Part shown: piece by piece, positions 22,200-43,023 of the stretch
Position numbering within the stretch: the stretch's first letter is position 1
Layout: each line of letters starts with the position of its first letter
Assembly: GCA_021159885.1 (NCBI GenBank)
Contig: JAGHDO010000087.1
Location: 1-51,813, forward strand
Source of the DNA: Synergistota bacterium
GTDB taxonomy: Bacteria > Synergistota > GBS-1
DNA length: 51,813 nucleotides
Reading direction: 5' to 3'
Made by a program: the position numbers and the translations under genes
Notes under the pieces: model-generated
The model's database searches: none
What the model saw: the letters and a program-made list of their open reading frames with translations, nothing else
Told to the model about the DNA's origin: nothing

Positions 22200-22206
22200 A
22201 GATCGC

Positions 22207-23640: not shown

Positions 23641-23650
23641 GCGCGAATTT

Positions 23651-23696: not shown

Positions 23697-23712
23697 TAAG
23701 GGAGTTGGGATA

Positions 23713-23754
23713 ATGAAAGCGGAGGTATTTGATCCTGATTCATTCCTCCGATGA
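23713..23754 (+). CDS. Possible 13-codon leader ORF overlapping allH start
   Basis: ATG 23713, about 9 nt after AAGGGAG (23698-23704), opens the reading frame MKAEVFDPDSFLR and stops at TGA 23752-23754, overlapping the first codons of allH in another frame. It also contains the SD GGAGGT that would serve allH. It might be a leader peptide coupling translation to allH, or the true N-terminus of allH separated by a frameshift. I cannot decide between these; it may also be chance. Confidence 0.3.
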   Translation: MKAEVFDPDSFLR

Positions 23755-24580
23755 GATAAACCTGGATAAGGTGAAAGGTTTTGGAGAAAACCTCTACGAA
23801 GGACTTCTTAAGATATCACCGGAGCTAATGTCCAATCTTAAGTTATATGCGGTTTCCCGTGTGCTTTTAAGGTTTTCTGGTAGAGGATATGTTATAGGTA
23901 ATTTTAAAAGAGGTATACTGCTTAAGCTTGGCTCCGCTTTCGTTTCTATTCTATTTGTGCCTGAGCTTTCTCATCCTTTAAGCGTTGTGGCTAAGAGAGG
24001 AGGATTGGCCTTTCCAGTATTTCTCGGCATGAGGGCAAGACTAGAAAATAGAATTCTTTATCTTGGGGATAACCTAATACCATTGGATTCAGGTTTTATA
24101 TGGAATCCCCGTGTGCCCTTTTTATCGAAAACCCATCTTTTGCAGGTTAGAGATGTTCTTTCCGATCTTCCTCCTCTTCATGAATCCTTGGAGATATGGT
24201 GTCGTGCGTGCGAAGAAAGCTTAAGGAAAGGAAGGGAAATTTCTTTCGTGGAGGAAGCGATCTCAATGCTGGGCTTTGGTGAAGGATCTACACCTTTGGC
24301 AGATGACATTATAGGAGGTATGGCACTGGGACTACTTTTAACAAGGGAAAGTAACACGTTATCTTTCTTGCGCAGAGAAATGCTAAGATTTCGAGATAAA
24401 ACCGCTGAGTATTCCTTTAAAATGATACTCCTTCTTTCAACAGGCTTGGTACCATGGAGCTTAAGGACCTTTTTAATAGCTCCGTGTGAAAGAAAGCTAA
24501 GAAAAGTGCTTTCACTGGGTAGTAGCTCTGGCTTAGGAATGCTCCGCGGAATTAAAACGATTCTGTACGCCATAGAGTGA
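23729..24580 (+). CDS. allH: DUF2877 protein, oxamate carbamoyltransferase subunit AllH-like
   Basis: A 283-residue protein of the DUF2877 family (YlbF/AllH in E. coli), a component of the three-gene oxamate carbamoyltransferase. The family hallmark GFGEGSTPLADDIIGGMALG aligns with the E. coli block around [20 protein letters not shown]. Start is uncertain: TTG 23729 is only 2 nt from the SD GGAGGT (23721-23726), CTG 23735 has better spacing, and an overlapping upstream mini-ORF complicates the picture. The gene sits immediately before allF and allG, as subunit genes of one complex would. Carbamoyltransfer here is inferred from the E. coli assignment. Confidence 0.82.
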   Translation: MILIHSSDEINLDKVKGFGENLYEGLLKISPELMSNLKLYAVSRVLLRFSGRGYVIGNFKRGILLKLGSAFVSILFVPELSHPLSVVAKRGGLAFPVFLGMRARLENRILYLGDNLIPLDSGFIWNPRVPFLSKTHLLQVRDVLSDLPPLHESLEIWCRACEESLRKGREISFVEEAISMLGFGEGSTPLADDIIGGMALGLLLTRESNTLSFLRREMLRFRDKTAEYSFKMILLLSTGLVPWSLRTFLIAPCERKLRKVLSLGSSSGLGMLRGIKTILYAIE

Positions 24581-24599
24581 TTAAAGGAGGTGGATGTGT

Positions 24600-26132
24600 T
24601 TGATTAGCAAAGTATGGGTGGAGAAAAACGCTTACTATGATTCAGTTACCCTTATGCAGGTTTCCTCAAAGCTTAGGGAAATAAAAGGCGTTGAGGAAGC
24701 CATGGTTGCTATGGGGACGCAGGCTAACGTTGAACAGCTTCAGAGAATAGGTTTTAACGTTAAAGAAGCGCCGAACGATCTGATTATCGCCATAAGAGCT
24801 CGGGATGAGAATATCTTTAAAATCGCAAGAAAAGCTGTAGATGAACTTCTTTTGAAAAAGGAAGAGAAAGAGGGAAAGGAAGCCCTGAAACCCGCGTCTA
24901 TAGAAGCTGCCGATAGAATTCTGGGAGGAGAAGCAAATCTGATTCTTATATCCTTACCAGGCAAGTATGCCCATAGAGAAGCTCGCAAGGCACTGAGAAT
25001 GGGAAAACACGTGTTTCTTTTCAGTGATAACGTTCCAATCGAAGAGGAAATTTCCTTGAAAAAGGAAGCTCTCAAGCGGGGTTTGTTGATGATGGGTCCA
25101 GATTGTGGAACGGCTATAATAAACGGGATTGCTCTTGCTTTCGCCAATAAAGTTCCTCGTGGGGGGATAGGGCTGGTAGCTGCATCGGGAACGGGTTTAC
25201 AAGAAGTAACTACAATAATTGCTAAGCTTGGAGAAGGCATAACTCAGGCTATAGGAACTGGGGGAAGAGACCTTTCTTCAAAAGTCGGTGGTCTCATGAT
25301 GATAGCTGGGCTAAGAGCTCTACAGAAAGATGAAGAGACAAAAGTAATCGTTCTAATATCTAAACCACCTGCTAAAGAAGTTGCCGAGAAAGTGCTATCC
25401 GAGGTTAGGAACTCTACGAAACCAACCGTAGTATGTTTCCTCGGGGGAGATTCTGAAATTGTTGAGAAGTACGGAGCTATACCCGCCACAACGCTTGAAG
25501 AAACCGCTCTTAAAGCAGTAGCACTCCTTAGGGGGAAAAGCTATGCTGGGCAAGCGCTTTCAGAAGAGGAAGAGAGGTTGGCTATTAAGGTAAGGGAGAC
25601 GATTCCCGAGGCTCGAAAATACGTTCGTGGGCTTTATTCTGGAGGAACCCTATGTGATGAGACGATGCTTATACTCAGCAAAGCTATAAAGAAGCCTATA
25701 TATTCTAACACTCCCCTTAAAGAGGAGTGGGCTCTTGAGGATCCATGGAAGAGTTTCGAGAACACGGTTCTTGACCTTGGAGACGATGTTTTTACGCAAG
25801 GTAGACCTCACCCAATGATAGATCCCAGGCTAAGACAGGAGAGGATTCTTGAAGAGGCATCTGATCCAGGAGTCGCGATTATATGCTTTGATGTAGTTTT
25901 AGGATATGGAGCGCATCCAGACATGGCTGGTGAGCTCGCTCCTTACATTAGGAGGGCGAGGGAGATTTCCAATAATGAGATGGTTTTCGTTGCCTCCGTC
26001 TGTGGCACAGAAGAAGATCCTCAAGTCTTAAGTGATCAGGTTAAGAAGCTTGAAGATGCAGGGGTCATTGTGCTTTCGTCTAATGCGAGATCTGCGAGAT
26101 TCATAGCTAAGCTAATGGAGGGGAGGTGCTAA
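24600..26132 (+). CDS. allF: FdrA/AllF, oxamate carbamoyltransferase subunit
   Basis: A protein of about 510 residues with two acyl-CoA-synthetase-like (succinyl-CoA synthetase alpha-type) domains. It is collinear with E. coli FdrA: SDNVPIEEEISLKKEALKRG, GLLMMGPDCGTAIINGIALA, VAASGTGLQEV, GRPHPMIDPRLRQ and ICFDVVLGYGAHPDMA all match conserved blocks. TTG 24600 at 9 nt from AAAGGAGG aligns with the E. coli N-terminus (MI...DSV); ATG 24594 is only 3 nt from the SD. With AllG and AllH it would split oxalurate-type substrates into oxamate and carbamoyl phosphate. The Cys in GPDCGT is conserved; its role is unknown to me. Confidence 0.88.
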   Translation: MISKVWVEKNAYYDSVTLMQVSSKLREIKGVEEAMVAMGTQANVEQLQRIGFNVKEAPNDLIIAIRARDENIFKIARKAVDELLLKKEEKEGKEALKPASIEAADRILGGEANLILISLPGKYAHREARKALRMGKHVFLFSDNVPIEEEISLKKEALKRGLLMMGPDCGTAIINGIALAFANKVPRGGIGLVAASGTGLQEVTTIIAKLGEGITQAIGTGGRDLSSKVGGLMMIAGLRALQKDEETKVIVLISKPPAKEVAEKVLSEVRNSTKPTVVCFLGGDSEIVEKYGAIPATTLEETALKAVALLRGKSYAGQALSEEEERLAIKVRETIPEARKYVRGLYSGGTLCDETMLILSKAIKKPIYSNTPLKEEWALEDPWKSFENTVLDLGDDVFTQGRPHPMIDPRLRQERILEEASDPGVAIICFDVVLGYGAHPDMAGELAPYIRRAREISNNEMVFVASVCGTEEDPQVLSDQVKKLEDAGVIVLSSNARSARFIAKLMEGRC

Positions 26133-26136
26133 TTTT

Positions 26137-27561
26137 ATGGCTATAGAGGACATCTTTGGAAGGGAATTAAAAATTATAAACCTTGGTCTTGAGGGATTTG
26201 CAAAAGACCTGGAGAAGCAGGGAGTAAGCGTCATTCACGTTGATTGGAAGCCACCAGCACTTGGAAATGAGGATCTTATAGAGCTTTTAGACAGACTTGA
26301 GCCTTATAAGGACAAGATAAACGAGGCGAATGATAAAGCTATCAGGGCTTTGCTTGATGCTCAGCCCACCATTGTTGGTTTGAGGAAGGCGATCGAGGTA
26401 ATTCCGGACATGGATGGGAGGACTTTTCTGCATGCAGGTCCTCCAGTTGAGTGGGATAGAATGTGTGGTCCTATGAAGGGGGCGATAATAGGGGGGCTTA
26501 TATATGAGGGATTAGCCAAGGATAAGGATGAAGCGGAAAGAATAGCGTCTTCAGGGAAAATAAAGTTTTCTCCTTGCCATCACCACGATGCTGTTGGTCC
26601 CATGGCAGGTGTTATAACTCCCTCTATGCCTGTCTGGATAATAGAGGAAGAAAGTAGTGGGAAAAGAGCTTATTGTACCCTGAATGAAGGGTTGGGAAAG
26701 GTTTTAAGATATGGAGCTTTTTCGCCTGAAGTAATAGATAGATTGAAGTGGATGGAGAAAACATTGGCACCAGCACTCAATGAAGCTCTCAAGATTAGGG
26801 GAAGAATAAATCTTAAGACTTTAATAGCTCAGGCTCTTCAAATGGGAGATGAATGTCATAACAGGAATAAGGCTGGAACTTCGCTTTTTATAAGAGAGAT
26901 AGCTCCTGCTCTTGTGAAGGCTGGGCTTGCTTCAGAAGTAGTTTCGAGCGTTTTAGATTTCATAAATTCTAATGATCATTTCTTCCTCAACCTTTCAATG
27001 CCTGCTTGTAAGTGTTCCTTAGAAGCGGCTTCGGGGATCAGATGGAGCACGCTCGTTATAGCAATGGCGCGCAATGGAACCGATTTTGGAATAAGGATTA
27101 GTTCTATGCCGGATAGGTGGTTTACCGCTCCAGCTCCAAAGGTAAAAGGACTGTATTTCCCTGGATACACGGATGAGGATGCCAATCCAGATATAGGAGA
27201 TAGCGCTATTACGGAAACAGCTGGAATTGGTGGATTCGCGATGGCAGCCGCTCCGGCTATTGTCAGATTCGTGGGAGGAACCGTTAAGGATGCTTTTAAC
27301 TTTACGCTTAGAATGTATGAGATAACCCTTGCTGAAAACACCTCCTATTTGATACCCAATCTGGATTTCAGAGGTACGCCCACGGGAATAGATCTTCTTA
27401 AGGTTGTGGAAAGGGGAATAACACCTAACATTAATACAGGAATAGCCCATAAGAATCCCGGAGTTGGGCAGGTAGGAGCCGGGTTAGTTGAGGCTCCAAT
27501 GAAATGCTTTGAAGACGCCTTAAAGGCGTTTATAGAGGAACATATATCGAAGGAGGGATGA
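26137..27561 (+). CDS. allG: DUF1116 protein, oxamate carbamoyltransferase subunit AllG-like
   Basis: A 474-residue DUF1116 (YlbE/AllG) protein. Recognisable blocks are the N-terminal INLGLEGFAKDLEKQGV and VDWKPPALG, the central HAGPPVEWDRMCGPMKGAI, FSPCHHHDAVGPMAGVITPS with three consecutive His, and the C-terminal KNPGVGQVGAGLVEAPMKCF. The His-rich and Cys-Gly motifs could bind a metal or carbamoyl group, but this is inference. It starts 4 bp after allF and ends 4 bp before the cyclase gene. No carbamate kinase is present in the window, so ATP recovery would need an enzyme encoded elsewhere. Confidence 0.88.
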   Translation: MAIEDIFGRELKIINLGLEGFAKDLEKQGVSVIHVDWKPPALGNEDLIELLDRLEPYKDKINEANDKAIRALLDAQPTIVGLRKAIEVIPDMDGRTFLHAGPPVEWDRMCGPMKGAIIGGLIYEGLAKDKDEAERIASSGKIKFSPCHHHDAVGPMAGVITPSMPVWIIEEESSGKRAYCTLNEGLGKVLRYGAFSPEVIDRLKWMEKTLAPALNEALKIRGRINLKTLIAQALQMGDECHNRNKAGTSLFIREIAPALVKAGLASEVVSSVLDFINSNDHFFLNLSMPACKCSLEAASGIRWSTLVIAMARNGTDFGIRISSMPDRWFTAPAPKVKGLYFPGYTDEDANPDIGDSAITETAGIGGFAMAAAPAIVRFVGGTVKDAFNFTLRMYEITLAENTSYLIPNLDFRGTPTGIDLLKVVERGITPNINTGIAHKNPGVGQVGAGLVEAPMKCFEDALKAFIEEHISKEG

Positions 27562-27565
27562 GATT

Positions 27566-28327
27566 ATGAAAGTAAAGTTGTATGATCTAACCCAAACCAC
27601 TGGTATACATACTCCACCTTGGCCCTCTTATGAGCCTCTTCAGGTGAAATATTTTAAGAGGTTGAGCTTTCATGGGGCTAATGGTCAGCTTATCACGACA
27701 AGCAATCACCTTGGAACTCACTTAGATGGACAGCTTCATTTCGTTCCGAATGGAAGAGATATTGCGAGTCTTACTCTCGATGAGCTTTTCGGGCCAGCGG
27801 TTATCGTTGATATAAGTGATGAGGTAGGAGAGTATGAGATCTATAGGCCTGAGCACTTTACTAAAAAGGTGGAAATAAGGGAAGGAGATATGCTCGTTAT
27901 TCATACCGGTTTTCATCACTATGCGTGGGATCAGCCTGAAGCTGACGAGATAAAGTATTTCTATAAACATCCTGGACCTCATAAGGAGTTCGCTGACTGG
28001 GTGCTCGATATGAAGATAAAGATGATACTTGTGGATTGTGGTTCTGCGGATCATCCAATGAATACCATACTAAGAAAGTTTAAACCCGAGATAGCAGCCG
28101 AGGCGGAGAAAAAGTTAGGGCGTCCCTTAGATGAGATCTTTCCTCCAAGCATGTATCAGATGATGCATCTTTACCTCTTTCCCAAGGGGGTTCTTCACGT
28201 TGAAAATGTGGGAGGAGAGATAGATAAACTCCTTAATAAAAGAGTGATGCTTGGCGTTTTCCCGTGGAAGTTTGAGGGTGGAGAATCTGCTTTCTGCAGA
28301 GTTGTAGCCTTTGAGTTTGAGGAGTAA
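27566..28327 (+). CDS. Cyclase-family metal-dependent hydrolase
   Basis: A 253-residue protein of the cyclase family (which includes kynurenine formamidase and isatin hydrolase). It carries the metal-binding motif NHLGTHLDGQLHF with His48, His52, Asp54 and His58 (pattern HxGTHxDxxxH), and a later GDMLVIHTGFHHYAWD segment. Such enzymes open cyclic amides or cleave formamides using Zn or Mn. Placed 4 bp after allG, it probably hydrolyses a ring or amide intermediate of the same catabolic route. It overlaps the next gene's open frame by 17 nt. Confidence 0.88.
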   Translation: MKVKLYDLTQTTGIHTPPWPSYEPLQVKYFKRLSFHGANGQLITTSNHLGTHLDGQLHFVPNGRDIASLTLDELFGPAVIVDISDEVGEYEIYRPEHFTKKVEIREGDMLVIHTGFHHYAWDQPEADEIKYFYKHPGPHKEFADWVLDMKIKMILVDCGSADHPMNTILRKFKPEIAAEAEKKLGRPLDEIFPPSMYQMMHLYLFPKGVLHVENVGGEIDKLLNKRVMLGVFPWKFEGGESAFCRVVAFEFEE

Positions 28328-28958
28328 ATTTAAATCGTCAGAGCTGAGAAAGAGGGCATCTTTCCCAACCTTTAAATATGCTGCTGTTATACTTGCTGCA
28401 GGGGAGTCAAAAAGGTTTGGTTCCCCGAAACAGTTATTAAAGCTTGGTGGAAAAAGCCTCCTTGAAATAGCCTTGGATCTTGTGGGGGGAGCTGATTTCT
28501 TCTCAAAAAGGATAGTTGTGCTTGGTGCTTATCTAATAGAGATACTAAAAAGTGTTCGCTTTCCTTTAGAGGTTCTGAAGGTATACAATCCTCACTATAA
28601 AAGGGGAATAGGTTCATCAGTCTCGCTTGCGGTTAGGTGTCTAAGAGGGTGTGATGCGGTTTTCTTTCTTCCCATTGATCAACCTCTTTTAACACAAAGG
28701 ACGCTCTTTTTGATAAAAGAAGCCTTTGAAAGCGGGAGGTGGAGCATAGTGGCTCCTCAAAAAGGGGGGCTTCCTACCCTCTTCTCGATGAAGTGGAGGC
28801 GGGAGCTTATTCGCCTTGGAGGAGATGAAGGGGGACGAAGCATAATAAAAAAATATCCTCAAGAGGTTGGTAGAGTTGAAATTCCCTCGGGGGAGCTTTT
28901 CGATATAGATCGGCCCGAGGACTTGATCCTCCTTAGTAAGGGGAGATTTCAGCGATGA
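28311..28958 (+). CDS. MocA-like molybdenum cofactor cytidylyltransferase
   Basis: A nucleotidyltransferase of about 215 residues with the signature YAAVILAAGESKRFGSPKQL, then FLPIDQPLLT in the place of the usual GDQP and DIDRPEDL at the C-terminus. MocA enzymes attach CMP to molybdopterin to make the dinucleotide cofactor used by xanthine dehydrogenase family enzymes, fitting the operon. The true start is uncertain: TTG 28311 or 28317 lie inside the cyclase gene, and about 20 non-conserved residues precede the conserved core. A MobA-type GTP role cannot be excluded by sequence alone. Confidence 0.85.
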   Translation: MSLRSKFKSSELRKRASFPTFKYAAVILAAGESKRFGSPKQLLKLGGKSLLEIALDLVGGADFFSKRIVVLGAYLIEILKSVRFPLEVLKVYNPHYKRGIGSSVSLAVRCLRGCDAVFFLPIDQPLLTQRTLFLIKEAFESGRWSIVAPQKGGLPTLFSMKWRRELIRLGGDEGGRSIIKKYPQEVGRVEIPSGELFDIDRPEDLILLSKGRFQR

Positions 28959-29977
28959 TAAAAAAGGTGAAGATTGAGGACGCTATAGGACTGCCTTTAG
29001 CGCATGATTTAACGCAGATAATACCGGGTAAGTTTAAGGGACCGCGTTTTAGGGTAGGTCATGTTATATCTCCTGAAGATATAGACATCTTAAGAAGCAT
29101 GGGAAGGGAATACATATATGTTATTGAATTATCGGACAATGAAGTTCATGAAAACGATGCTTCTCTTGCCTTAGCGCAGGCTATTATAGGTGATAACTTG
29201 AGAATAAGTGAGCCTGTGGAGGGAAAGGTTTCGATTTTCTCAGAGTGCTCTGGTCTGATAAAGATAAATAGAGAAGCCGTTAAAGAGATAAATATGCTTG
29301 GAGATTATGTTTTAAGCACAGTTCACGGAAATATTCCTGTTTGGAGCGGACAACTTATAGCCTCGGTAAAACTTATACCTCTTATAGGCAAACGAAAAGA
29401 TCTTCATGAAGCTATTGAGATAGCACAAAGATTTAAACCTCTGATTCATTTAAAGCCCTATCTTTTAAAAAGAGCTTCGCTGATAATAACCGGTAAGGAA
29501 GTATACGAGGGGAGAATAAAAGACGCCTTTGAACCAACTCTGAGAAAAAAGCTTTTGAATTACGGCGTTGATGTAATAAATGTAGGGATATTCCCGGATG
29601 ATCCCTCAAGAATAGCTGAAGCCATAGTTAGTTTCGCTCGCGATTCTGACATTCTGATATGTACAGGTGGTATGTCGGTTGATCCAGAGGATATGACTCC
29701 CACGGCTATCAAGCGTGCGGGGGTAAACGTGGAAAGATATGGTTTTCCTCTTCTACCAGGTGCTATGACTCTCTTAGGGTACCTTGATAAAAAACCTGTT
29801 ATAGGAATTCCTGCGGCAGCTATATACTATGAGACAACCGCTTTTGATATAATTCTTCCTCGACTTCTCGCCGGAGAAAGGGTAACATTTGAAGATATAG
29901 CTGAGCTTGGTTATGGAGGCTTGTGCTGGCTCTGTGATATTTGTCATTTTCCTTGCTGTCCTTTTGGCAAAGCTTGA
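28955..29977 (+). CDS. Molybdopterin-binding (MoaB/Mog-domain) protein
   Basis: A 340-residue protein. The N-terminal half starts VKIEDAIGLPLAHDLTQIIP as in MoeA-like molybdopterin-binding proteins; the second half holds the molybdopterin-binding fold with LIITGKEVYEGRIKD, ICTGGMSVDPEDMTPTAIKR, and GIPAAAIYYETTAFDIILPR. A Cys-rich tail (four Cys in LCWLCDICHFPCCPFG) may bind a metal. Such proteins accompany molybdenum hydroxylases and probably act in metal insertion or cofactor handling. It overlaps the preceding gene by 4 nt. The stop codon overlaps the -35 element of the next promoter. Confidence 0.85.
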   Translation: MIKKVKIEDAIGLPLAHDLTQIIPGKFKGPRFRVGHVISPEDIDILRSMGREYIYVIELSDNEVHENDASLALAQAIIGDNLRISEPVEGKVSIFSECSGLIKINREAVKEINMLGDYVLSTVHGNIPVWSGQLIASVKLIPLIGKRKDLHEAIEIAQRFKPLIHLKPYLLKRASLIITGKEVYEGRIKDAFEPTLRKKLLNYGVDVINVGIFPDDPSRIAEAIVSFARDSDILICTGGMSVDPEDMTPTAIKRAGVNVERYGFPLLPGAMTLLGYLDKKPVIGIPAAAIYYETTAFDIILPRLLAGERVTFEDIAELGYGGLCWLCDICHFPCCPFGKA

Positions 29978-30002
29978 CACCCCCTCGCTTTTGTGCTATT
30001 TT
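29974..30002 (+). promoter_or_regulatory. Sigma-70-type promoter of the fmdE-ABC operon
   Basis: TTGACA at 29974-29979, a 17-bp spacer, then TATTTT at 29997-30002. The -35 is perfect and overlaps the stop codon of the upstream gene; the -10 matches four of six. Transcription should begin near 30009, giving a leader of about 30 nt. Both the spacer and the -10 are covered by the left arm of the 16-bp inverted repeat described next. Confidence 0.7.
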
Positions 30003-30030
30003 TAGCTTAGTGAGTAGCACAAAAGCGAGG
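29983..30030 (+). repeat. Perfect 16-bp inverted repeat over promoter and RBS (putative operator/hairpin)
   Basis: Left arm CCTCGCTTTTGTGCTA at 29983-29998, right arm TAGCACAAAAGCGAGG at 30015-30030, separated by 16 nt. The left arm covers the promoter spacer and the first -10 bases; the right arm lies within the transcribed leader and ends in the SD (GCGAGGTG) of fmdE. As DNA it is a good candidate operator for a dimeric or tetrameric repressor. As RNA, only read-through transcripts from the upstream operon contain both arms and would hide the SD. Confidence 0.8.
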
Positions 30031-30038: not shown

Positions 30039-30476
30039 TTGAAATGGCTTAAAAAGAGTGGAATTTCATTTGATGAGCTATGGCATAAGGCAGTCGATTT
30101 TCATGGGCATGAGGGACCCTACCTGGTAGCGGGCTTAAGAATGGGTATGTATATACTTCGAGCTCTGTCTGCAAGAGGATACTCTGATTTAAAGCTCATT
30201 GTTGAGTCTCCAGCCTTTACTCCCTATACTTGTCTTTTAGATGGATTGCAGGTTTCAACTGGCTGCACGCTTGGCAAGGGGAACATCGTTCTTGTTCCAT
30301 CTTCCTCGAAAGACATTAGAGTGCTGGCTATATGTGATAAGAAAAGGATTTTTCTGTCCCTTCCCTTCAAAATTCAGGAGAGGTTTAGGAAGTGGACCGA
30401 TGAAACCTCCGTTGAGGAAGCTGCTAAAAGGGCGATGGAACTTGGGGAGGAGATTTTCAGCGTTGAAGCATGTTGA
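30039..30476 (+). CDS. FmdE-family protein
   Basis: A 145-residue protein of the FmdE family (formylmethanofuran dehydrogenase subunit E-like), found in many bacteria that lack methanogenesis. It contains FHGHEGPYLVAGLRMG (His22, His24) and GLQVSTGCTLGKGNI (Cys76), matching the family core; the usual Cys after the second His is Gly, and the C-terminal zinc-finger domain of longer members is absent. TTG 30039 lies 8 nt after GCGAGGTG; GTG 30030 overlaps that SD. It heads an operon with an ABC transporter, so a metal-handling or ligand-sensing role is plausible, but no function is established. Confidence 0.85.
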   Translation: MKWLKKSGISFDELWHKAVDFHGHEGPYLVAGLRMGMYILRALSARGYSDLKLIVESPAFTPYTCLLDGLQVSTGCTLGKGNIVLVPSSSKDIRVLAICDKKRIFLSLPFKIQERFRKWTDETSVEEAAKRAMELGEEIFSVEAC

Positions 30477-31134
30477 GCTTATTGATGTATCCGTTGCCTA
30501 TGAGGGAGAGGGACGCCCTGCCATTTACGATATAAATCTCCTTATAGAAGAGGGAGATTTTGTTCTTGTTCATGGCCCTAATGGCGCTGGAAAAACAACT
30601 TTGCTTGAAACTATTAATGGTCTCCTTAAGCCTTTTAAGGGAAAGGTTATATATAAGGGATACGAGGTTAATGGAAACGCTCATGCCTTGCGGAGAAGAA
30701 TGGGTTACGTTGTTCAGGATTTTCAATTCGATCCGCTAACCCCCTTTACTGTGGAAGATTTGATAATGATGGGATTAAACGCGAAATATGGTCCGCTGAG
30801 ATATCCCTCTTACTCTGAAAGAATGAAAGTCTATGATGTTATGGACATGCTTGGTATCTTAGATCTTGCTCACAGGCCTGTGGGAAAGCTTTCCGGAGGA
30901 CAGCAGCAAAAAGCTTTGCTGGCATACTCTCTTGTAAAAGATCCAGAGATTCTCCTTCTGGATGAGCCTTTGTCTCATCTTGATAAGAATGCGAGGAGAG
31001 AGACTATTAGGCTTATAGAAAGGTTAAATAGGGAGGGGAAGACTATAGTAATCGTTTCTCACATATATGGTGAAATCGATCTGAGTAAGATAAAGCCTGT
31101 AAAAATGGATTCTGGAAGGATTGTAGGAGATTAA
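30463..31134 (+). CDS. ABC transporter ATP-binding protein, Znu/Mnt-like
   Basis: A nucleotide-binding subunit of about 223 residues: Walker A GPNGAGKT (residues 38-45), Q-loop in YVVQDFQFD, signature LSGGQQQKALLAYSL, Walker B ILLLDEPLSHLD. The start is TTG 30463, 14 nt inside fmdE after GGGGAGG; the open frame runs further upstream through fmdE but without any conserved sequence, so that extension was dropped. It pairs with the ABC-3 permease directly downstream. Confidence 0.9.
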   Translation: MKHVELIDVSVAYEGEGRPAIYDINLLIEEGDFVLVHGPNGAGKTTLLETINGLLKPFKGKVIYKGYEVNGNAHALRRRMGYVVQDFQFDPLTPFTVEDLIMMGLNAKYGPLRYPSYSERMKVYDVMDMLGILDLAHRPVGKLSGGQQQKALLAYSLVKDPEILLLDEPLSHLDKNARRETIRLIERLNREGKTIVIVSHIYGEIDLSKIKPVKMDSGRIVGD

Positions 31135-31138
31135 GGAA

Positions 31139-31960
31139 GTGTCTGATATACTAAGGTTTGCTATAGTTGCATCCCTGCTTGCTGGAATTTCATGCTCTAT
31201 ATTGGGGGTTTTCGTTGTTAGGATGAAGCTTACCTCAGTTGGTTTTGCTACATCGCACGCTGCTTTTGCTGGTGCGGCAATTTCTCTGTTTTTCCAATCT
31301 AATCCTCTTACAGGGGCTCTTATCGCTTCTTTATTTATGGCACTTACGCTTGGCCCCCTGAGTGAGAAAGCTAAGTTGCATGCAGAAATTATTCTGGGAG
31401 TTTTATTTAATCTTTCGCTTGCTCTTGGTTTTATCTTTTTAAGCTTATCGCCCTCTTCTGCTTTCGATAGATCAATTCTTTCTCTCCTCTGGGGCAGTGT
31501 CCTGGGTATAACTCACGATGAGATTATAATTCTCGTGTGGATTTTAGGTATAATAGTGGGAGTGATTCTTCTCTTCTTTAAGGAATTTGAAGCACTGCTT
31601 ATTTCACGAAGACTTGCGGAAGCGGCTGGAATCGATACCAAGCCTTTCTTTTATACGATTCTTTTTATGATAGCTATAGTGGTTGCTGTTTCTTTAAGAC
31701 TTGTTGGTGGTTTTTTAATATACACGTTATTGGTGGTTCCTCCAGCGTCTGCTCTTCAATTCTGTAACAGAATTAGAACCCTTTTCTGGATGGCTCCTCT
31801 CTTTTCGATATTTGCCGTATTGGGAGGAGTTTTTCTCTCCTTTAAATTTGATTTCCCCCTTGGCTCTTCTATAGCTCTTTTATCAGCTGCTCTCTTTTTC
31901 GGATCGGTTTTGCTTTCTCCCAAGAGGTATAGGGTAATCCTAAGGAGGTGTATTAAATGA
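31139..31960 (+). CDS. ABC-3 family metal-type permease
   Basis: A membrane subunit of 273 residues with about eight hydrophobic segments. It has the ABC-3 features GVFVVRMKLTSVGFATSHAA, LLISRRLAEAAGIDTKPFFY (the cytosolic coupling helix) and RLVGGFLIYTLLVVPPASAL. ABC-3 permeases import zinc, manganese or iron. The start is GTG 31139 after AAGGAA, 4 bp after the ATPase gene; the stop overlaps the binding protein by 4 nt. Confidence 0.9.
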   Translation: MSDILRFAIVASLLAGISCSILGVFVVRMKLTSVGFATSHAAFAGAAISLFFQSNPLTGALIASLFMALTLGPLSEKAKLHAEIILGVLFNLSLALGFIFLSLSPSSAFDRSILSLLWGSVLGITHDEIIILVWILGIIVGVILLFFKEFEALLISRRLAEAAGIDTKPFFYTILFMIAIVVAVSLRLVGGFLIYTLLVVPPASALQFCNRIRTLFWMAPLFSIFAVLGGVFLSFKFDFPLGSSIALLSAALFFGSVLLSPKRYRVILRRCIK

Positions 31961-32901
31961 GGGGGAGAGTTTCATTAGCGGTTTTACTAATGCTCTTTTT
32001 GATCGTTTCAATAAGTGGTGTTTCTTATTCACAGGAGCGTGGAGAAAAGGCAATAGTTGCTACAACTACTACCGTGCTTGGTAGTGTGGTTAAGGATCTC
32101 CTTGGAGCGAAGGTTAAGGTTATAACGCTGGTTCCGCCAGGTTCCTGTCCTGCTCATTTCGATCTTAAGCCCAGTGACGTAGAGGCAATAAAAAAGGCGA
32201 GGGTAGTATTAGCTCATGGGTTTGAGCCATGGATAGAAAAGATATCTGCTAAGGTTATTAAGATCGGTGGTGGATGGAATACCGCAGAGCTTGCAAGGGA
32301 GCTTTATAGAAGGATTGCTGATGCTCTGAAACCTATACTGCCAGAGTATGCGGGAGAGATAGAAAGTAATTTATCTAAGGTGCTGAAAAAGCTTGATTCA
32401 CTTGAAGAGTTGGTAAGTAAAGAGAGGAAAAGCTTGAGAGATATAAAAGCGATTGTTATGAAATGGCAAGCTCCTTTTGTCAAGTGGCTTGGAGTTTCCA
32501 TACTTGCAACCTATCCTCCTCCAGAGAGAATGAGTGCTTCTCAGGTGGAAAGAATTATAGCTGTTGGAAGGGTCAAAAAGGTGATGTTAGTTATAGATAA
32601 TTTGCAAAGCGGGATATCAATGGGAAGAAGAATCTCGGCGGAAGTAGGAGCGGTTCATGTGGTTTTGACCAACTTTCCGGAATCTCTCCCAGGCGTTAAA
32701 AACATAGTGGAGATGATAAAACACAATCTGAAACAGGTGCTAAATGGAGTGAAAGCATACAGACGCCAAGTTAGAAAAATAGCGAGGCTCAAGGCTGAGA
32801 TAAGTGACCTTAGTGGCAGATTAAAGTTTTGGAAAGCGGTTTCAGCCGTGGCTCTCGGAATAGTTATAATAGAGAGCTTTATGCTTCTTAGAAGGCGCTG
32901 A
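31957..32901 (+). CDS. Divergent ZnuA/TroA-like binding protein with C-terminal membrane anchor
   Basis: A 314-residue substrate-binding protein. Residues 1-26 form a signal peptide; the TroA-like fold follows with VVKDLLGAKVKVITLVPPGS, then SCPAHFDLKPSDVEAIKKAR (one ligand-position His, His67, beside Cys64). The second and third His of ZnuA/TroA are missing: the usual THDAFGYF region reads MKWQAPFVKW. After a charged coiled-coil segment (about 262-292) comes a hydrophobic helix (294-311) ending LLRRR, a tail anchor facing the cytosol. The protein therefore probably stays tethered and binds something other than Zn or Mn. Confidence 0.85.
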   Translation: MRGRVSLAVLLMLFLIVSISGVSYSQERGEKAIVATTTTVLGSVVKDLLGAKVKVITLVPPGSCPAHFDLKPSDVEAIKKARVVLAHGFEPWIEKISAKVIKIGGGWNTAELARELYRRIADALKPILPEYAGEIESNLSKVLKKLDSLEELVSKERKSLRDIKAIVMKWQAPFVKWLGVSILATYPPPERMSASQVERIIAVGRVKKVMLVIDNLQSGISMGRRISAEVGAVHVVLTNFPESLPGVKNIVEMIKHNLKQVLNGVKAYRRQVRKIARLKAEISDLSGRLKFWKAVSAVALGIVIIESFMLLRRR

Positions 32902-32968: not shown

Positions 32969-32989
32969 AAGCATGTCTAAAAGCATACA

Positions 32990-33183
32990 TATTGTCCTTG
33001 TCGGGTGAACGGGAAGACCGGTGAGAATCCGGCGCGGTTCCCGCCCACGGTAAGGGGGGACGAAAGGCCCGTTGTGCCACTGGAAGCGTGAGTGCTTCTG
33101 GGAAGGCGGGTTAAGTAGGTAGATCCCTGAGCCCGGAGACCGGCTCGGCGAGGTAAAGGGGCTCCTGCGGGAGGTGAAGGAGC
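32990..33183 (+). ncRNA. Cobalamin riboswitch aptamer
   Basis: Recognised by the core GGTGAGAATCCGGCGCGG (33020-33037), the L5 segment TTCCCGCCCACGGTAA, and the B12 box AGCCCGGAGACCGGCTC (33130-33146). Stem P1 pairs 32996-33003 with 33146-33153 (eight pairs, two of them G-U). P13 is the hairpin 33161-33183, whose loop GCGGGA (33167-33172) is fully complementary to TCCCGC in L5 (33039-33044), the known kissing-loop interaction. It senses adenosyl- or methylcobalamin and represses the downstream uptake operon. Boundaries were judged by eye. Confidence 0.95.
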
Positions 33184-33191
33184 AAAAGGTA

Positions 33192-33238
33192 AGGGGTCCG
33201 GCTCTCGTTCTTTTACAGGAGCCGGACCCCTATTCTTT
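33192..33238 (+). terminator. Riboswitch expression-platform terminator hairpin
   Basis: AGGGGTCCGGCTC (33192-33204) pairs perfectly with GAGCCGGACCCCT (33219-33231), 13 bp with a 14-nt loop, followed by TATTCTTT, a broken T-tract. The left arm can alternatively pair, with bulges, with GAGCCCGGAGACC at 33129-33141 in the B12 box region. That suggests a switch in which ligand-free RNA uses the B12-box strand as anti-terminator. The pairing alternatives are inference from complementarity. Confidence 0.75.
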
Positions 33239-33263
33239 GGGATCTTAAGGAGGATGGTACATC

Positions 33264-35219
33264 GTGCTTTTGAGAAAAATGGCTATGATGTGTGTCTTCT
33301 TTATTCTTCTTGCAGGGGCTCAAACTACGGAGGCGCAGGTCTTTGAGCTTGGCACGATGGAAGTTTATGGTTCCTATCTTGAAGATGAGCCTTCCTCATG
33401 TTCTGTGATATTTCCGGACCAGTATAAGGGTGAATTTAAGGATCTTGGTGATCTGCTTTCTGATATACCAGGCGTCAGAGTGACGAGGCTTGGTGGGCGA
33501 GGCGCTTATACCGTAATTTCTATAAGGGGAAGCACAGCAGGACAAGTAGCAGTTTATCTTAACGGAGTTTTGATGAATATGGGGGGAGAATATGCGGTGG
33601 ATTTATCAACGATTCCATTAAACGCTGTTGAAAGAATAGAGGTCTATAGGGGAAGCGTTCCCGTCCGTTTTGGCATTGCTGGGATAGGAGGAGTGATAAA
33701 CATCATAACGAAGAAGGATGCCAGATTTAATACTGCTAAAGCTGCGATTGGTTCTTTTAGAACATACCGACTTGAGATCTTAAGAAAACTAAGAAAAGGA
33801 TTGCTTTCTCTTGATCTGGAAAGCAGCAAGGGAGACTATCCTTACCATAACGATAACGGTACCCCCTATACTTCGGATGACGATTATAACACGAGAAGGA
33901 AAAACAACGCTTATAGAATTTCAGATATAAGAATTTCTAAAGATGTAAATGGAAACAAGCTGTTTTTTGCCTATTTTGCTAAGCGCAGAGAGCTCCCTAA
34001 TCCTGCTCCCGGGGATGATAGGGAAGATTGTATGTCTCACTCGAATCTTTCATTAAGCCGGTTTATAGGGGAAGTTTCGAGAGATTTCAGTTTTTCAGAG
34101 GAAACGGTTGGAGAAGCTTCGTTTTACTTTCTCCTTTCCCGTAAAGAGTTCTGGAACCCGAGAGGTGATCTTGGGTGGCCCAATCAAAAGCATAACTGGT
34201 ACAATTCGGGAAAAATTGGCTTAAATTTTTCTCTAAATCGCGTTTTAGGAGAGAACTCGATGCTTGAGTTTCACTTTGAGACTTTTTTAGAGGAGCTGAA
34301 GCCAGGTGGAGATATAACCTCATCCGTATGGTCTCCCCTTAATAAGATCCATAGCTATTACAAGAAAGCGTCGATCTTATCTCTTGAGTATACGCTTTCA
34401 TCTGGCAATTTACTATTGATACCTTGGATTAGATGGCTTAGCTCGAGTGAGAGCGGTGGGAAGCTTTCATCAAGCAGCGATCACCTTGGTTATGGCATGA
34501 GGCTGAAATACTCCTTAAGCGACAGATGGAGTTTGAAATCAACGTGGGGAAAATATGTGAGAGTCCCTGATTTTTACGAGAAATTTGGGGATGGAGCTTT
34601 TATCCTGCCTAATCCTTCTCTTGAAAATGAGAAAGGGAAAAATTTTGATTTTGGAGTAGAGTATAGAACTCCTCTCTTTTCTGGGTATCTAACCTATTTT
34701 AGAAGCGATGTGGATGACCTTATTGAGCTCGTGATGGCTAACCCCAGATACGCTTATTACAAAAATATAGGAAGAGCGGAAATAGAGGGGATTGAGCTTA
34801 GTTTTTCCAAGGCTTTTAAAAACGGGTGGATGTTCAGCGTGTCTTATACCTACATGAACGCGGTTAATAAGTCATCCGGGTATAGGGAAAATAAACCCTT
34901 GCCTAATAGACCCAAACATAGTTTAAGCGTGAGATTAAGTCGTGTTTCGGGAAGGTGGAACGCTTTTGTAGAAGGAAGATATGTGGGGGAGAATTACTTC
35001 GATACCGGAGGGTTGGTTAAATTTAGCGATTGGTGGAGCTTAGATTTGGGGTTCTCATATTTTATCTCTAAGGGAGAAAAAATAAGTTTCATTATAAAGA
35101 ATATTACAGATAATCAGGTCCTCAAAGTTATACCAGCTTCTTCCTTCGGGCCAGAGAGAATGGCGGATTATCCGCCTGTCGGAAGGAGCTTTTACTTAAG
35201 CTATATAAAAAGCTTCTAA
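33264..35219 (+). CDS. btuB: TonB-dependent cobalamin receptor, BtuB-like
   Basis: An outer-membrane receptor of 651 residues, consistent in length with BtuB. Residues 1-24 form a signal peptide, followed by a TonB-box-like ELGTMEVYGS, a plug domain (DLGDLLSDIPGVRVT, SIRGSTAGQVAVYLNGV, GSVPVRFGIAGIGGVINIIT) and a 22-strand-type barrel ending in a C-terminal Phe, the barrel-assembly signal. GTG 33264 follows AAGGAGG (33247-33253) by 10 nt. Cobalamin specificity is inferred from the riboswitch and the downstream btuF/btuC/btuD genes. Confidence 0.93.
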   Translation: MLLRKMAMMCVFFILLAGAQTTEAQVFELGTMEVYGSYLEDEPSSCSVIFPDQYKGEFKDLGDLLSDIPGVRVTRLGGRGAYTVISIRGSTAGQVAVYLNGVLMNMGGEYAVDLSTIPLNAVERIEVYRGSVPVRFGIAGIGGVINIITKKDARFNTAKAAIGSFRTYRLEILRKLRKGLLSLDLESSKGDYPYHNDNGTPYTSDDDYNTRRKNNAYRISDIRISKDVNGNKLFFAYFAKRRELPNPAPGDDREDCMSHSNLSLSRFIGEVSRDFSFSEETVGEASFYFLLSRKEFWNPRGDLGWPNQKHNWYNSGKIGLNFSLNRVLGENSMLEFHFETFLEELKPGGDITSSVWSPLNKIHSYYKKASILSLEYTLSSGNLLLIPWIRWLSSSESGGKLSSSSDHLGYGMRLKYSLSDRWSLKSTWGKYVRVPDFYEKFGDGAFILPNPSLENEKGKNFDFGVEYRTPLFSGYLTYFRSDVDDLIELVMANPRYAYYKNIGRAEIEGIELSFSKAFKNGWMFSVSYTYMNAVNKSSGYRENKPLPNRPKHSLSVRLSRVSGRWNAFVEGRYVGENYFDTGGLVKFSDWWSLDLGFSYFISKGEKISFIIKNITDNQVLKVIPASSFGPERMADYPPVGRSFYLSYIKSF

Positions 35220-35237
35220 AGGAGGTGTTCCTTTAGC

Positions 35238-36359
35238 ATGAAGAAGCAATTAGCGTCATTGGTGGTTTTAGTTCTGTTAGCGTTCACAGCATTATGGGGT
35301 TGCGGTACAGGAGGCGGTTCATGGATTCCGAGCAATCTTTTTGCTGTCGTTGTTGGCGTTGATGCAGGGTATACCTCGGCAAACGTTTCTACGGTGGATC
35401 TGAAAAGCGGGGATTTTACGGTTTCTTCAAGCATTCTTTCTGGTTTCTGTGGGGACACAATAGCAAAAACTCGCGGGAATTATGTTCTGCTTATAGAAAG
35501 ACCCTCTTGGGGAACGGTTCCATCTCCCGTGCATCTTTATGAGGCTGGGTCGTGGGAAACTCCTCTTAAGGAGTATAACCTTGGCAAGAACGTTCACGAT
35601 GTGGTTTTCTTGAACGATGAAGTTGCCTATGCGATACAATGGGGCGAATCATATGTTGAGAAGTTTAACCCCCTTACTGGTGATGATCTGGGTGAGATAG
35701 ATTTGTCATCCTATGATACAGATGGTATCCCTGACATGGATAAGGGAGCTTATGTTAATGGAAAACTTTTCGTTACGCTTCAGAGGATGGATTCGGAAAC
35801 CTACTCGTACGATATGGGTATGGTAGTTGCCATAGATACCAATAGCGATCAGGTATCGTGCTCAATAGAGCTTAGTGGGAAGAATCCTCAGGATATAGAT
35901 TACTATGCTGGTAAGCTCTATGTTACAGAGCTTGGAAACTACTTTGACGCTTCTGATGATGTCATAGATGTGATAGATGTGAACTCCGCTGAGGTCAATG
36001 AGTTAATCAGCGCTCCTTTGGAAAATGAGGGTATGGATATATATGCCATTGAGATAATTTCTGATGGAAAAGGATACTTGCTGGGAGGCAAATGGGAAAC
36101 GTCAGCCGTTTTTAAGGTTTATAAGCTGAATCTCGAAACCGGTGAAGTTGATCCTGATCCCATTTATAGTGGAGGATATATAACTTCGATAAAATATGAT
36201 CCTGTATCTGGATATCTTCTCATACTTGATAGAGGAACAGGAGCGGGGGATGGAGGGCTTGTTATATACGATCCTGCCTCGGAGAGTATCGTCGATCAGA
36301 TTCCGGAGGAAAATCTGGGCTATCCACCGTATTCTGCTGATATATCAGCCTTTGATTAA
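35238..36359 (+). CDS. YncE/BtuG-like beta-propeller lipoprotein
   Basis: A 373-residue lipoprotein: a hydrophobic signal ends in ALWGC with Cys22 as the lipidation site, followed by GTGGG. The mature part holds repeated beta-propeller blades of the YncE/DUF5074 kind, with repeats such as VVGVDAGYTSANVSTVDLKS, LFVTLQRMDSETY, KLYVTELGNYFDASDDVIDV and YDPVSGYLLILDRGTG. In Bacteroidetes, BtuG is a propeller lipoprotein that captures B12 on the cell surface next to BtuB. Here the gene lies 18 bp after btuB under the same riboswitch, so the same job is likely; sequence homology to BtuG itself was not tested. Confidence 0.82.
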   Translation: MKKQLASLVVLVLLAFTALWGCGTGGGSWIPSNLFAVVVGVDAGYTSANVSTVDLKSGDFTVSSSILSGFCGDTIAKTRGNYVLLIERPSWGTVPSPVHLYEAGSWETPLKEYNLGKNVHDVVFLNDEVAYAIQWGESYVEKFNPLTGDDLGEIDLSSYDTDGIPDMDKGAYVNGKLFVTLQRMDSETYSYDMGMVVAIDTNSDQVSCSIELSGKNPQDIDYYAGKLYVTELGNYFDASDDVIDVIDVNSAEVNELISAPLENEGMDIYAIEIISDGKGYLLGGKWETSAVFKVYKLNLETGEVDPDPIYSGGYITSIKYDPVSGYLLILDRGTGAGDGGLVIYDPASESIVDQIPEENLGYPPYSADISAFD

Positions 36360-36409
36360 TCTCCGAACGACCACTTCCTCACCGTTTTAAAATAGATTAC
36401 CCTTTGGGT

Positions 36410-36440
36410 GGGGAGGAAAGCTCCTTGACCTTTCCTCCCC
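36410..36440 (+). other. Intercistronic stem-loop before exbB
   Basis: GGGGAGGAAAG (36410-36420) pairs perfectly with CTTTCCTCCCC (36430-36440) around a 9-nt loop. No T-run follows, so it is not a convincing intrinsic terminator. It lies in the 116-nt gap between the lipoprotein and exbB and could protect upstream mRNA from 3' decay, giving more receptor and lipoprotein than inner-membrane proteins. Confidence 0.6.
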
Positions 36441-36475
36441 CCTGCCTTAAACTGTTTTGGGAGGACGTGAGAAGA

Positions 36476-36988
36476 TTGGAGTGGTTTGAAAAGGGCGGTC
36501 CGTTAATGTATCCAATTTTTATTTGCTCTATACTTTCTTTAGCGATTTTCTTAGAACGCTTGTTTTATCTACTTAAAAGGCGTCAAATAATAGAGCGTTT
36601 TAGAAGAAAAATAGAGGGACTTTCCGGAGATATTAAGGAATTAAGGGAAATATTAATGGTTCTTGTTGAAGGGGAAGCAATGAGGCTTTCGAAAGGCCTT
36701 GGAGCGCTTTCTTTAATAGCGAGAGTAAGCACTCTCCTTGGACTTCTTGGTACCGTTTTGGGAATGGTGGAGGTTTTTAAAGAGGTTTCTGAAGGAAAGC
36801 TTGGTGATCCAGAGGCTCTCGCGGGAGGAATCTGGGTTGCTCTTATAACGACGGTATTTGGGCTATCAGTTGCCATTCCAGCTGTTTTCATGCATGGCTT
36901 TCTTTCTTCCTTAGTCTCTCGCAGAGAGGAAGAGCTTCTTAAAATAGGAGAGGAGGTCTTAATTGAAAAGGCAAAATCTGATAGGTAG
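36476..36988 (+). CDS. exbB: ExbB/TolQ-family proton channel protein
   Basis: The proton-channel subunit energising TonB. The product of about 170 residues has TM1 (GGPLMYPIFICSILSLAIFL), TM2 (LSLIARVSTLLGLLGTVLGM) and TM3 (GIWVALITTVFGLSVAIPAV) in the MotA/TolQ/ExbB arrangement. TTG 36476 at 11 nt from GGGAGG is preferred; GTG 36467 is too close to that SD and longer open-frame extensions are not conserved. It overlaps btuF by 26 nt. Confidence 0.9.
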   Translation: MEWFEKGGPLMYPIFICSILSLAIFLERLFYLLKRRQIIERFRRKIEGLSGDIKELREILMVLVEGEAMRLSKGLGALSLIARVSTLLGLLGTVLGMVEVFKEVSEGKLGDPEALAGGIWVALITTVFGLSVAIPAVFMHGFLSSLVSRREEELLKIGEEVLIEKAKSDR

Positions 36989-37874
36989 AATTGCTATTCT
37001 ACTTTTCGCTTTTTTGCTCTTTACAAAAATCGCCTTCACGTTTCCAATTGCTTTAAAAGACTCTCTTGGCAATGTGGTTAAATTAGAATCTCCTCCAAGA
37101 AGGATAATTTCCTTGGCTCCTTCTATTACGGAAACCTTATTTGCAATAGGTGCCGGTGATAGGGTTGTGGGTGTAACAACCTTCGATGATTACCCTCCAG
37201 AGGTGAAAAGGATCTTTAAAGTTGGGGGGTTCTCAAACCCTAATCTGGAAAGGATACTTTATCTTAAGCCAGATTTAGTTTTAGGAATTTCTAATATTCA
37301 CGCGGAGATAGTAAAGCGCCTAAGAAAACTAAAGGTGCCTTGCTTTACTTTCAGGCTCTTCGATAAGCTTTCAAGACTCTATTATGAGATAAAGGTGCTT
37401 GGAAAGCTCGCTGGGAGGAAAAAAAGCGCGGAAAATCTTGTTGGAAGGATCAAGGAAAAGATATATCGATTGAGGGAAAAGGGAAGGCATCTTAGAAAGC
37501 ACCCCAGGGTTTTCATGGCTATATGGGATAATCCTCTTGTTACAGTTGGTAGGGGAAGCTACATTCATGAGCTTATAGGAATAGCGGGAGGAAAGAGCAT
37601 AACATCCTCCTTGCCGGCTCCCTTTCCTCTATATAGCATAGAAAATCTCGCTAAAGAATCACCAGATATAATAATTGTCGCTGGGGGTAAAGGTGGCATG
37701 AGCTTAAGTAAAGAAAGGCTTTTAAAGATGCTTAAGGGGAGAGGGATAAAAGCGGTTGAAAAAGACGATGTGTATGAAGTCGAGGCAAATTTGCTTTTCA
37801 GGTTATCACCGAGGATAGTGTATGGAATAAAGAATCTTTATAATATCTTTAAAAGATGGGCAGAAAGAGATTGA
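36963..37874 (+). CDS. btuF: Cobalamin ABC transporter substrate-binding protein BtuF
   Basis: A periplasmic cobalamin-binding protein of the helical-backbone type, 303 residues. A signal peptide covers residues 1-26; the mature protein starts with PIALKDSLGNVVKLESPPRR and IISLAPSITETLFAIGAGDR, then GVTTFDDYPPEVKRI, and has the long interlobe helix (residues 120-160), all matching BtuF/FhuD-type proteins. TTG 36963 lies inside exbB after GGAGGTC. The gene's insertion between exbB and exbD couples binding-protein synthesis to the energising complex. Confidence 0.9.
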   Translation: MKRQNLIGRIAILLFAFLLFTKIAFTFPIALKDSLGNVVKLESPPRRIISLAPSITETLFAIGAGDRVVGVTTFDDYPPEVKRIFKVGGFSNPNLERILYLKPDLVLGISNIHAEIVKRLRKLKVPCFTFRLFDKLSRLYYEIKVLGKLAGRKKSAENLVGRIKEKIYRLREKGRHLRKHPRVFMAIWDNPLVTVGRGSYIHELIGIAGGKSITSSLPAPFPLYSIENLAKESPDIIIVAGGKGGMSLSKERLLKMLKGRGIKAVEKDDVYEVEANLLFRLSPRIVYGIKNLYNIFKRWAERD

Positions 37875-38245
37875 GTGGAAGAGAAAACGGCTTTCTGGAT
37901 CTAACTCCACTAATAGATATAATCTTTCAACTCGTCATATTTCTCGTTCTGACAACTGCTTTTATTCCTTTTGCAATCAGGGTTGAGCTCCCCAAAGCAA
38001 TTTCCTCCCCAATGAGGGAGAAAAAGCCAATCATAATTACGATAACGCGTGAGGGTAGTATTTTTCTTGGAAAAGAAAGAGTGTCTCTCCCAGATCTCAT
38101 TCATAAGGTGAGGGTGAGGCGAGGAAAGATATACCTCATAAAGGGAGATAAGGGAGCTCAATACGGGCTGATCATATCTGTTCTTAATGCTCTAAAAAAG
38201 AACGGCGTGGGGAAGGTGGGCTTACTCGTTGAACCAGAGCGTTAA
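37856..38245 (+). CDS. exbD: ExbD-family biopolymer transport protein
   Basis: A partner of ExbB with one membrane helix. The 129-residue product has the conserved sequence FLDLTPLIDIIFQLVIFLVL with the proton-carrying Asp21, followed by a periplasmic domain with AIRVELPKAISSP and KGDKGAQYGLIISVLNALKK. ATG 37856 overlaps btuF by 19 nt; its stop overlaps tonB by 17 nt. Confidence 0.92.
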   Translation: MGRKRLSGRENGFLDLTPLIDIIFQLVIFLVLTTAFIPFAIRVELPKAISSPMREKKPIIITITREGSIFLGKERVSLPDLIHKVRVRRGKIYLIKGDKGAQYGLIISVLNALKKNGVGKVGLLVEPER

Positions 38246-38975
38246 ATTTTGCTTCTTTCTTGGTTTGTCTCTTCTATGTCATCTCATTATCCTGGGCTTT
38301 TTGCCACGCTTTGAGTTAGCACGATCTCCATCGGCGATATGGGTTAATGTAGTAGAGCTTCCAAGGCCTAAGAGCTTAAAAATCAATGGAGAGTTTAAGA
38401 TGAAGGGAGAGGTGAGTAGAGGAAGCAATGCAGGAGAAAAGGTTCATTTGCCGCAGGTTCGAAGCTTGCATTTAGAGGGGAATATTCTAAAAAGTACTGT
38501 GGTAAGTTTAAAGCTCAAGATTAAGGTCAGGCAAAAGCGTCGTCATTTGTCGAAAGTAAGGAGAGCAAGCGCTGTGGAAAAGAAGAAGAAAAAAGGAGCT
38601 GACGCGAAAGCTGCTTCAAAGGGTGCGTCTTTGCTGGGCTCCGAAAAGAGAAAGGAGGAGGGTGGCAGCTTTGGTAAGCGTGAGGCAAGCTCGGCAGTAT
38701 CGAGGTTGACTCCTCCAAAACCGCTTAAAATCACCAAGCCGAGATATCCCATAATTGCGAGAAAGATGAGATACGAGGGGGCAGTTGTACTCGATATCGA
38801 GGTTTTACCAGATGGGAGCGTAGGAAAGGTCAAGATTGTTGAGTCGTCGGGATATGAGGTTCTTGATAAGGCAGCGGTTAGAGAGGTTAAAAAGTGGAAG
38901 TTTATCCCTGCCGTTAGAAACGGAAAACCTGTAAGAAGCGTGGTGAGAGAGAGAATAGTCTTTAGGATAAGATGA
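38229..38975 (+). CDS. tonB: TonB energy-transducing protein
   Basis: A 248-residue TonB: an N-terminal membrane helix (residues 6-24), a long Lys/Ala/Ser-rich spacer (about 35-160, unusually poor in the Pro-Glu/Pro-Lys repeats of E. coli TonB) and a C-terminal TonB domain with PRYPIIARKMRYEGAVVLDI, VESSGYEVLDKAAVREVKKW and FIPAVRNGKPVRSVV. It connects the ExbB-ExbD motor to BtuB across the periplasm. TTG 38229 overlaps exbD; the stop overlaps btuC by 4 nt. Confidence 0.92.
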   Translation: MNQSVKFCFFLGLSLLCHLIILGFLPRFELARSPSAIWVNVVELPRPKSLKINGEFKMKGEVSRGSNAGEKVHLPQVRSLHLEGNILKSTVVSLKLKIKVRQKRRHLSKVRRASAVEKKKKKGADAKAASKGASLLGSEKRKEEGGSFGKREASSAVSRLTPPKPLKITKPRYPIIARKMRYEGAVVLDIEVLPDGSVGKVKIVESSGYEVLDKAAVREVKKWKFIPAVRNGKPVRSVVRERIVFRIR

Positions 38976-43022: not shown

Positions 43023-43023
43023 T

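Follow-up and report, generated by a model that had tools for sequence, protein, structure and literature searches.

Hydrogenases, CO dehydrogenases and methanogenesis all depend on a supply of nickel. Its uptake systems have been surveyed as the Nik/CbiMNQO, NikABCDE, NiCoT, UreH and HupE/UreJ types (PMC2667541), to which H. pylori adds NiuBDE (PMC7840056). All of these belong to classes other than ABC-3/TroA. Among the papers searched for NikR together with FmdE, ZnuA or TroA, none describes an importer of that class for nickel, and the nearest gives a zinc reading (PMC3087415).

We describe a four-gene cassette in a bacterial genome that, judged from its sequence, is quite probably an ABC-3/TroA-class nickel importer under NikR control, in which FmdE would accept nickel in the cytosol. 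Like ZnuABC, TroABC and PsaABC (ABC-3, cluster A-I), it encodes an ABC-3 permease, an ATPase and a TroA-fold protein with a long backbone helix. Unlike them, it lacks the metal tetrad and has invariant Cys64, His67, Trp107 and Asn239; it also has FmdE in the operon, a NikR-type operator and a C-terminal membrane anchor, the last found here and in most archaeal members. With NikKMLQO and NikMNQO it shares the NikR-type operator and the presumed substrate, and NikKMLQO and the cassette occur together in the host; those systems, however, are of the ECF type, have no TroA binding protein and use unrelated machinery. NikABCDE and NiuBDE, which NikR regulates in E. coli and H. pylori, are likewise ABC importers with a binding protein, and nickel is the presumed substrate of the cassette as well. 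NikABCDE is of the Opp type and NiuBDE of the Fec type, whereas the cassette is ABC-3/TroA.

Cassette anatomy and relatives

The cassette occupies positions 30039-32901 of the window (the whole 51.8-kb stretch of DNA analysed). As the initial annotation proposed, it comprises FmdE, an ATPase, an ABC-3 permease and a tail-anchored TroA-fold binding protein, all in frame on the + strand and overlapping or near-abutting. The FmdE-family gene runs from TTG 30039 (or GTG 30030) to 30476 (PF02663, 4.1e-19), the ABC ATPase from TTG 30463 to 31134 (PF00005), the ABC-3 family permease from 31139 to 31960 (PF00950, 4.4e-53) and the ZnuA-family binding protein from 31957 to 32901 (PF01297, 1.1e-24). These four families place the cassette outside the known nickel importers (NikABCDE, NikMNQO/KMLQO, NiCoT and NiuBDE). 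The NCBIfam names it attracts are those of zinc and manganese systems (AztA/AztB/AztC, MntA/MntC), all sub-threshold; for the ATPase, the best models are AztA and MntA, both under cut-off. The permease is at most 52% identical to its relatives.

The arrangement recurs in distant organisms. Among more distant kin of the host, one homologous cassette was found, in another phylum (L061), and a genome-collection scan returned 32 loci, mainly from thermophilic archaea. Most belong to Bathyarchaeota, Thermoproteota, Thermoplasmatota and other archaea, together with the bacterial Bipolaricaulota/Acetothermia and Aerophobetes. Retrieval by two peptide patterns makes this a narrow sampling, and several loci are closely related. 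FmdE adjoins the binding-protein gene in 26 of the 32 loci. Chance assembly can be ruled out, since the arrangement is conserved in the 32 loci. FmdE was not found in three genomes of the host's own family (G001-G003), which suggests horizontal gain; a permease tree left the origin of the cassette without resolution.

Other FmdE genes were seen in different company. In three loci from other bacteria (L062, L063 and L067), an HGHxGP-type FmdE gene adjoins a prepilin-like gene, with no ABC cassette, and nikR or NikR-type sites lie near it; this set is perhaps another nickel-linked FmdE system. At L069 (4021-9357), an HGHxCPG-type FmdE gene stands directly 3' of an Opp/Nik-type ABC transporter operon.

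NikR-type operators in the window and elsewhere

The cassette begins behind a promoter-like site, TTGACA-N17-TATTTT (29974-30002, + strand), with 10/12 consensus positions and a TG before the -10 element. Such a site is not significant alone (6 found vs 5.2 expected), and nikK of the host has a promoter laid out likewise (TTGACA...TATGAT). Overlapping it is a perfect inverted repeat at 29983-30030, with 16-bp arms around a 16-bp centre and a folding z of -6.2 as a single strand. Within this repeat lies a NikR-type operator-like dyad, GTGCTAT-N14-GTAGCAC (29993-30020), the best-scoring NikR-type dyad in the window. The locus thus shows a feature of NikR regulons, a dyad of ~28 bp with NikR half-sites at a promoter. 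We considered whether the 16-bp repeat acts as a terminator or forms a hairpin in RNA, and rejected both: neither arm is followed by a run of T, and the 5' arm precedes the point where the transcript should start. As this arm falls within the -35/-10 spacer, we favour an operator acting as DNA over an RNA structure.

Outer inverted repeats were also seen at both NikR-type host promoters, CCTCGCTTTT/AAAAGCGAGG at 29983-30030 of the window and CCTCCTTTCG/CGAAAGGAGG at the nikK promoter (about 6890-6965 of L130). In both, the right arm contains the ribosome-binding site.

Described NikR sites include the delta-proteobacterial consensus GTGTTAC-N13/14-GTAACAC (PMC545781) and the E. coli site GTATGA-N16-TCATAC (PMC7055735). 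The half-site class GTRNYAC covers the delta-proteobacterial form, and the window dyad has one mismatch to it. Using a pattern refined after some sites had been seen, we found exact GTRNYAC-N13/14/15-GTRNYAC dyads before 20/32 cassettes, against 1/170 control gene starts taken from the same loci (p = 2.2e-18). Counted by clusters of the substrate-binding protein, dyads occur in 12 of 19 (p = 2.1e-13). The single control dyad adjoins the L101 cassette, where the binding-protein gene is in pieces. Over 408,815 bases (loci plus window), exact pairs with a gap of 13-14 number 16; the count in 39 promoter windows, each 205 bases long, is 15. Further loci have dyads with a gap of 15; no exact dyads were found at gaps 8-12 or 16-20.

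In the host genome, GTGCTA-N16-TAGCAC has its only exact match at the cassette. RTRNYAY-N14-GTAGCAC has three matches in 1.77 Mb, against none for the reversed control; two of the three defined the pattern, and the third was not used in making it. The matches are the nikK-nikM-nikL-nikQ-nikO promoter on contig C38, 13 nt before nikK; the window cassette, which has the half-site GTAGCAC in common with that promoter; and a site on contig C64, ~48 nt before an operon of a PF01497 binding protein, FecCD and an ATPase. A loose dyad (2 mismatches) gave 38 matches across the whole host genome vs 56 in the backward control; as it is no richer than the control, only the tighter motif is informative.

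The C64 operon (515-3433 of L138), which follows a NikR-type dyad and encodes a Fec-type binding protein, a FecCD permease and an ATPase, is possibly a third nickel importer of the host. A similar operon adjoins nikM in the sister genome G002 (L133).

The NikR of the host scores 167.9 against an equivalog cut-off of 105 bits and keeps the Q-H...H-L-H...C nickel ligands. Besides NikKMLQO, the genome encodes a homologue of a hydrogenase large subunit, of [NiFe] type, in which the motifs RICGIC and DPCLSC are present. Among the relatives, nikR lies within 2 kb of the cassette in 10 of the 32 loci, and 27 of the 29 cassette genomes encode NikR. Co-occurrence at genome level is weak alone because NikR is common in such genomes: among methanogens, 98% have it (PMC10617489). 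A class-wide test of co-occurrence yielded just 7 genomes and was set aside. In one Thermoplasmatota clade HypA stands beside the cassette: at L094 and, judging from the predicted proteins, also at L095, L098 and L100. The gene after HypA in this clade encodes a MinD/Mrp-type ATPase. Archaeal HypB is an ATPase of this type, so HypA and its neighbour may be a HypA-HypB pair. An archaeal HypB is cited in PMC7055735.

The proposed import of an unrecognised metal can therefore be narrowed: the reading as a dedicated import cassette is supported, and the NikR-type operators, nikR genes and, in one clade, adjacent hypA make nickel the most likely metal. A standard zinc/manganese label is most likely wrong, since the cassette lies behind a NikR-type switch here and in many thermophilic archaea. 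One point against nickel is that the host already has NikKMLQO and would not strictly need a second nickel importer; another is the presence of AOR genes beside two relatives.

Binding protein and FmdE

The binding protein has the fold of a metal binder. An AlphaFold2 model built from 27 aligned relatives has a pLDDT of 93.3, and its Foldseek matches are the TroA-fold metal binders YfeA, ZnuA, MntC, AztC and PsaA, at TM-scores (normalised by target) of ~0.71-0.79. The protein has an N-terminal signal, a long C-terminal helix and a hydrophobic tail segment at 291-309. The motifs first noticed, SCPAHF (with Cys64 and His67) and MKWQAPF, and the C-terminal helix with its hydrophobic segment, are all present.

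The Zn/Mn site usual for the fold is missing family-wide. The initial annotation took one His to be a retained canonical ligand, but a profile alignment to PsaA sets the canonical His67 column (PsaA ligand numbering) on Ala66, and the family's own His67 stands one residue further. The second PsaA ligand, the DPHAW His, has no counterpart because its column is deleted ahead of Trp107, and the Asp280 column holds Asn239. The His-His-His/Glu-Asp tetrad is absent from the window protein and likewise from the 27 aligned members. Across these members, Cys64, Pro65, His67, Asp69, Pro72, Ala81, Gly88, Glu90, Trp92, Gly105, Trp107, Gly179, Glu190, Asn215, Gly223, Gly231, Asn239, Phe240, Pro241 and Asn257 are invariant. 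As the ligand columns are replaced and these others held constant, the family has lost the Zn/Mn site and kept a different residue set, which bears out the suspicion that the binding site is not a Zn/Mn site.

This bears directly on the reading of the cassette as an ordinary zinc/manganese importer of the ZnuABC kind with a drifted pocket, which we regard as very unlikely. The family and fold of the proteins are those of such importers, and apart from the cassette protein the host lacks a good ZnuA, the sole further PF01297 match being a lone, partial one on C74. Kaster et al. also read a ZnuABC cluster beside nikR in Methanothermobacter as a zinc system (PMC3087415). Against it, the canonical ligand columns stand as Ala66, a deletion and Asn239 throughout the family, and the operators are of the NikR type, in the host common to nikKMLQO. 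Importers of the ZnuABC and TroABC kind are controlled by Zur, MntR or a similar regulator; the dyad seen at this cassette is of the NikR type.

The ZnuA-like C74 gene (1300-2112 of L003) has no ABC partners and is flanked by glutamine synthetase and a penicillin-binding protein gene.

A C-terminal tether had been noted as unusual. The tether is present, but the oddity does not stand: by hydropathy, 23/31 other members carry a C-terminal anchor, every one archaeal, and it is absent from the Bipolaricaulota and Aerophobetes members. Since the carriers are all archaeal, the anchor is a usual archaeal feature and is odd only for a bacterial host.

FmdE is a core domain only, with no signal peptide seen, and scores 69.4 against a curated PF02663 cut-off of 22.9 bits. 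Among its relatives are 2GLZ and 2GVI. In the Desulfitobacterium FmdE 2GLZ, mixed Zn/Ni is bound at His15, His17, Cys19 and Cys55, and its authors point out that genes for FmdE are mostly found next to those for metal transporters (PMC2954224). The window protein resembles this core-only kind in its place beside a metal transporter, and it keeps the His-x-His and second-motif Cys of the Zn/Ni site. It differs in that the third ligand, Cys19, corresponds to Gly26, and in an extra invariant Cys76. In the relatives, His22, His24, Gly26, Cys65, Asp68, Gln71 and Cys76 (numbered from TTG 30039) are invariant. The altered pocket reported earlier (HGHEGPY) is indeed there, HGHEGP standing in place of the FHGHxC metal motif, but it is no local oddity, as Gly-for-Cys is invariant in 21 aligned members. 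Short family members have in common HGHxGP, the second-motif Cys and one added invariant Cys. Cys76 may take the place of the lost Cys19 in the metal site.

Together, these features suggest how the system might work. The membrane-tethered TroA-fold protein would capture nickel, as an ion or small complex, in a remodelled pocket whose invariant residues include Cys64 and His67, and the ABC-3 permease and ATPase would move it into the cell. There, cytosolic FmdE would take the nickel on His22, His24 and Cys65, perhaps with Cys76, and hand it on towards nickel enzymes. At plentiful nickel, host NikR would occupy the dyad (29993-30020) and so switch the promoter off. On balance, we lean towards a wider family of nickel importers on an ABC-3/TroA chassis in uncultured thermophilic archaea and some bacteria, with a Cys/His pocket in place of the Zn/Mn tetrad and FmdE as a dedicated nickel acceptor. 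If true, zinc/manganese-labelled importer genes in many deep-branching archaea are nickel importers, the FmdE family, so far without a biochemical role, gains a testable one, and the zinc reading of NikR-adjacent "ZnuABC" in methanogens (PMC3087415) is reopened.

Neighbouring units and rival substrates

Upstream of the cassette lies what is apparently an anaerobic purine-degradation operon (18521-29977), with xanthine dehydrogenase at 18521-22199, an NCS2 purine permease, DUF2877/FdrA/DUF1116-type genes (a first-pass reading), and MocA-like and molybdopterin-binding proteins up to 29977. The cassette follows the molybdenum-cofactor genes of this operon (28311-29977), and could be read as a molybdate/tungstate importer serving xanthine dehydrogenase in the host and tungsten AOR enzymes in archaea. 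The host has no recognisable ModA, WtpA or TupA, searches with PF13531 and PF12849 returning phosphate and TRAP-type proteins; thermophilic anaerobes are frequent among the relatives, which include a "Wolframiiraptor"; and AOR genes adjoin L074 and L078. We nonetheless consider this reading highly unlikely. AOR enzymes stand beside just 2/32 relatives, of which L078 also has nikR, and a separate promoter-like site with a NikR-type operator precedes the cassette. Its binding protein, which matches PF01297 only, has a cation-binder fold outside the ModABC/TupABC/WtpABC-type families. An oxyanion substrate is unlikely. The suggested link to the neighbouring molybdo-enzyme is not supported: promoter-like site and operator (29974-30030) are the cassette's own, and the neighbours of the relatives included no XdhA match. 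We therefore rejected a molybdenum link through the upstream operon as the main reading, the relatives lacking that neighbourhood, and tungsten was set aside after the "Wolframiiraptor" locus and AOR neighbours had been weighed.

A short distance downstream stand a cobalamin riboswitch (32986-33162) and a BtuB-like receptor (together 32986-35219), and the cassette could be a cobalt importer tied to these adjacent vitamin B12 genes. NikR proteins can bind cobalt in vitro. The riboswitch, however, opens a separate BtuB-like unit after the cassette, the NikR-type operators point to nickel, and a look at the predicted proteins around the 32 relatives showed no recognisable B12 genes. We consider cobalt very unlikely. 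Zinc/manganese, molybdate/tungstate and cobalt each leave the recurrence of NikR-type dyads across phyla unexplained, and nickel remains our preferred substrate.

Several neighbouring features are observations in their own right. The purine and molybdenum-cofactor operon stands in a genome without recognised ModA, WtpA or TupA. The B12 uptake unit at 32986-40649 comprises the riboswitch, the BtuB-like receptor, a lipoprotein-like gene (35238-36359), ExbB, and BtuF-like and ExbD-like genes. Beyond it, the - strand carries a TAXI-type TRAP transporter (40701-44479) and a 620-aa KamA-family radical SAM protein (46575-48437).
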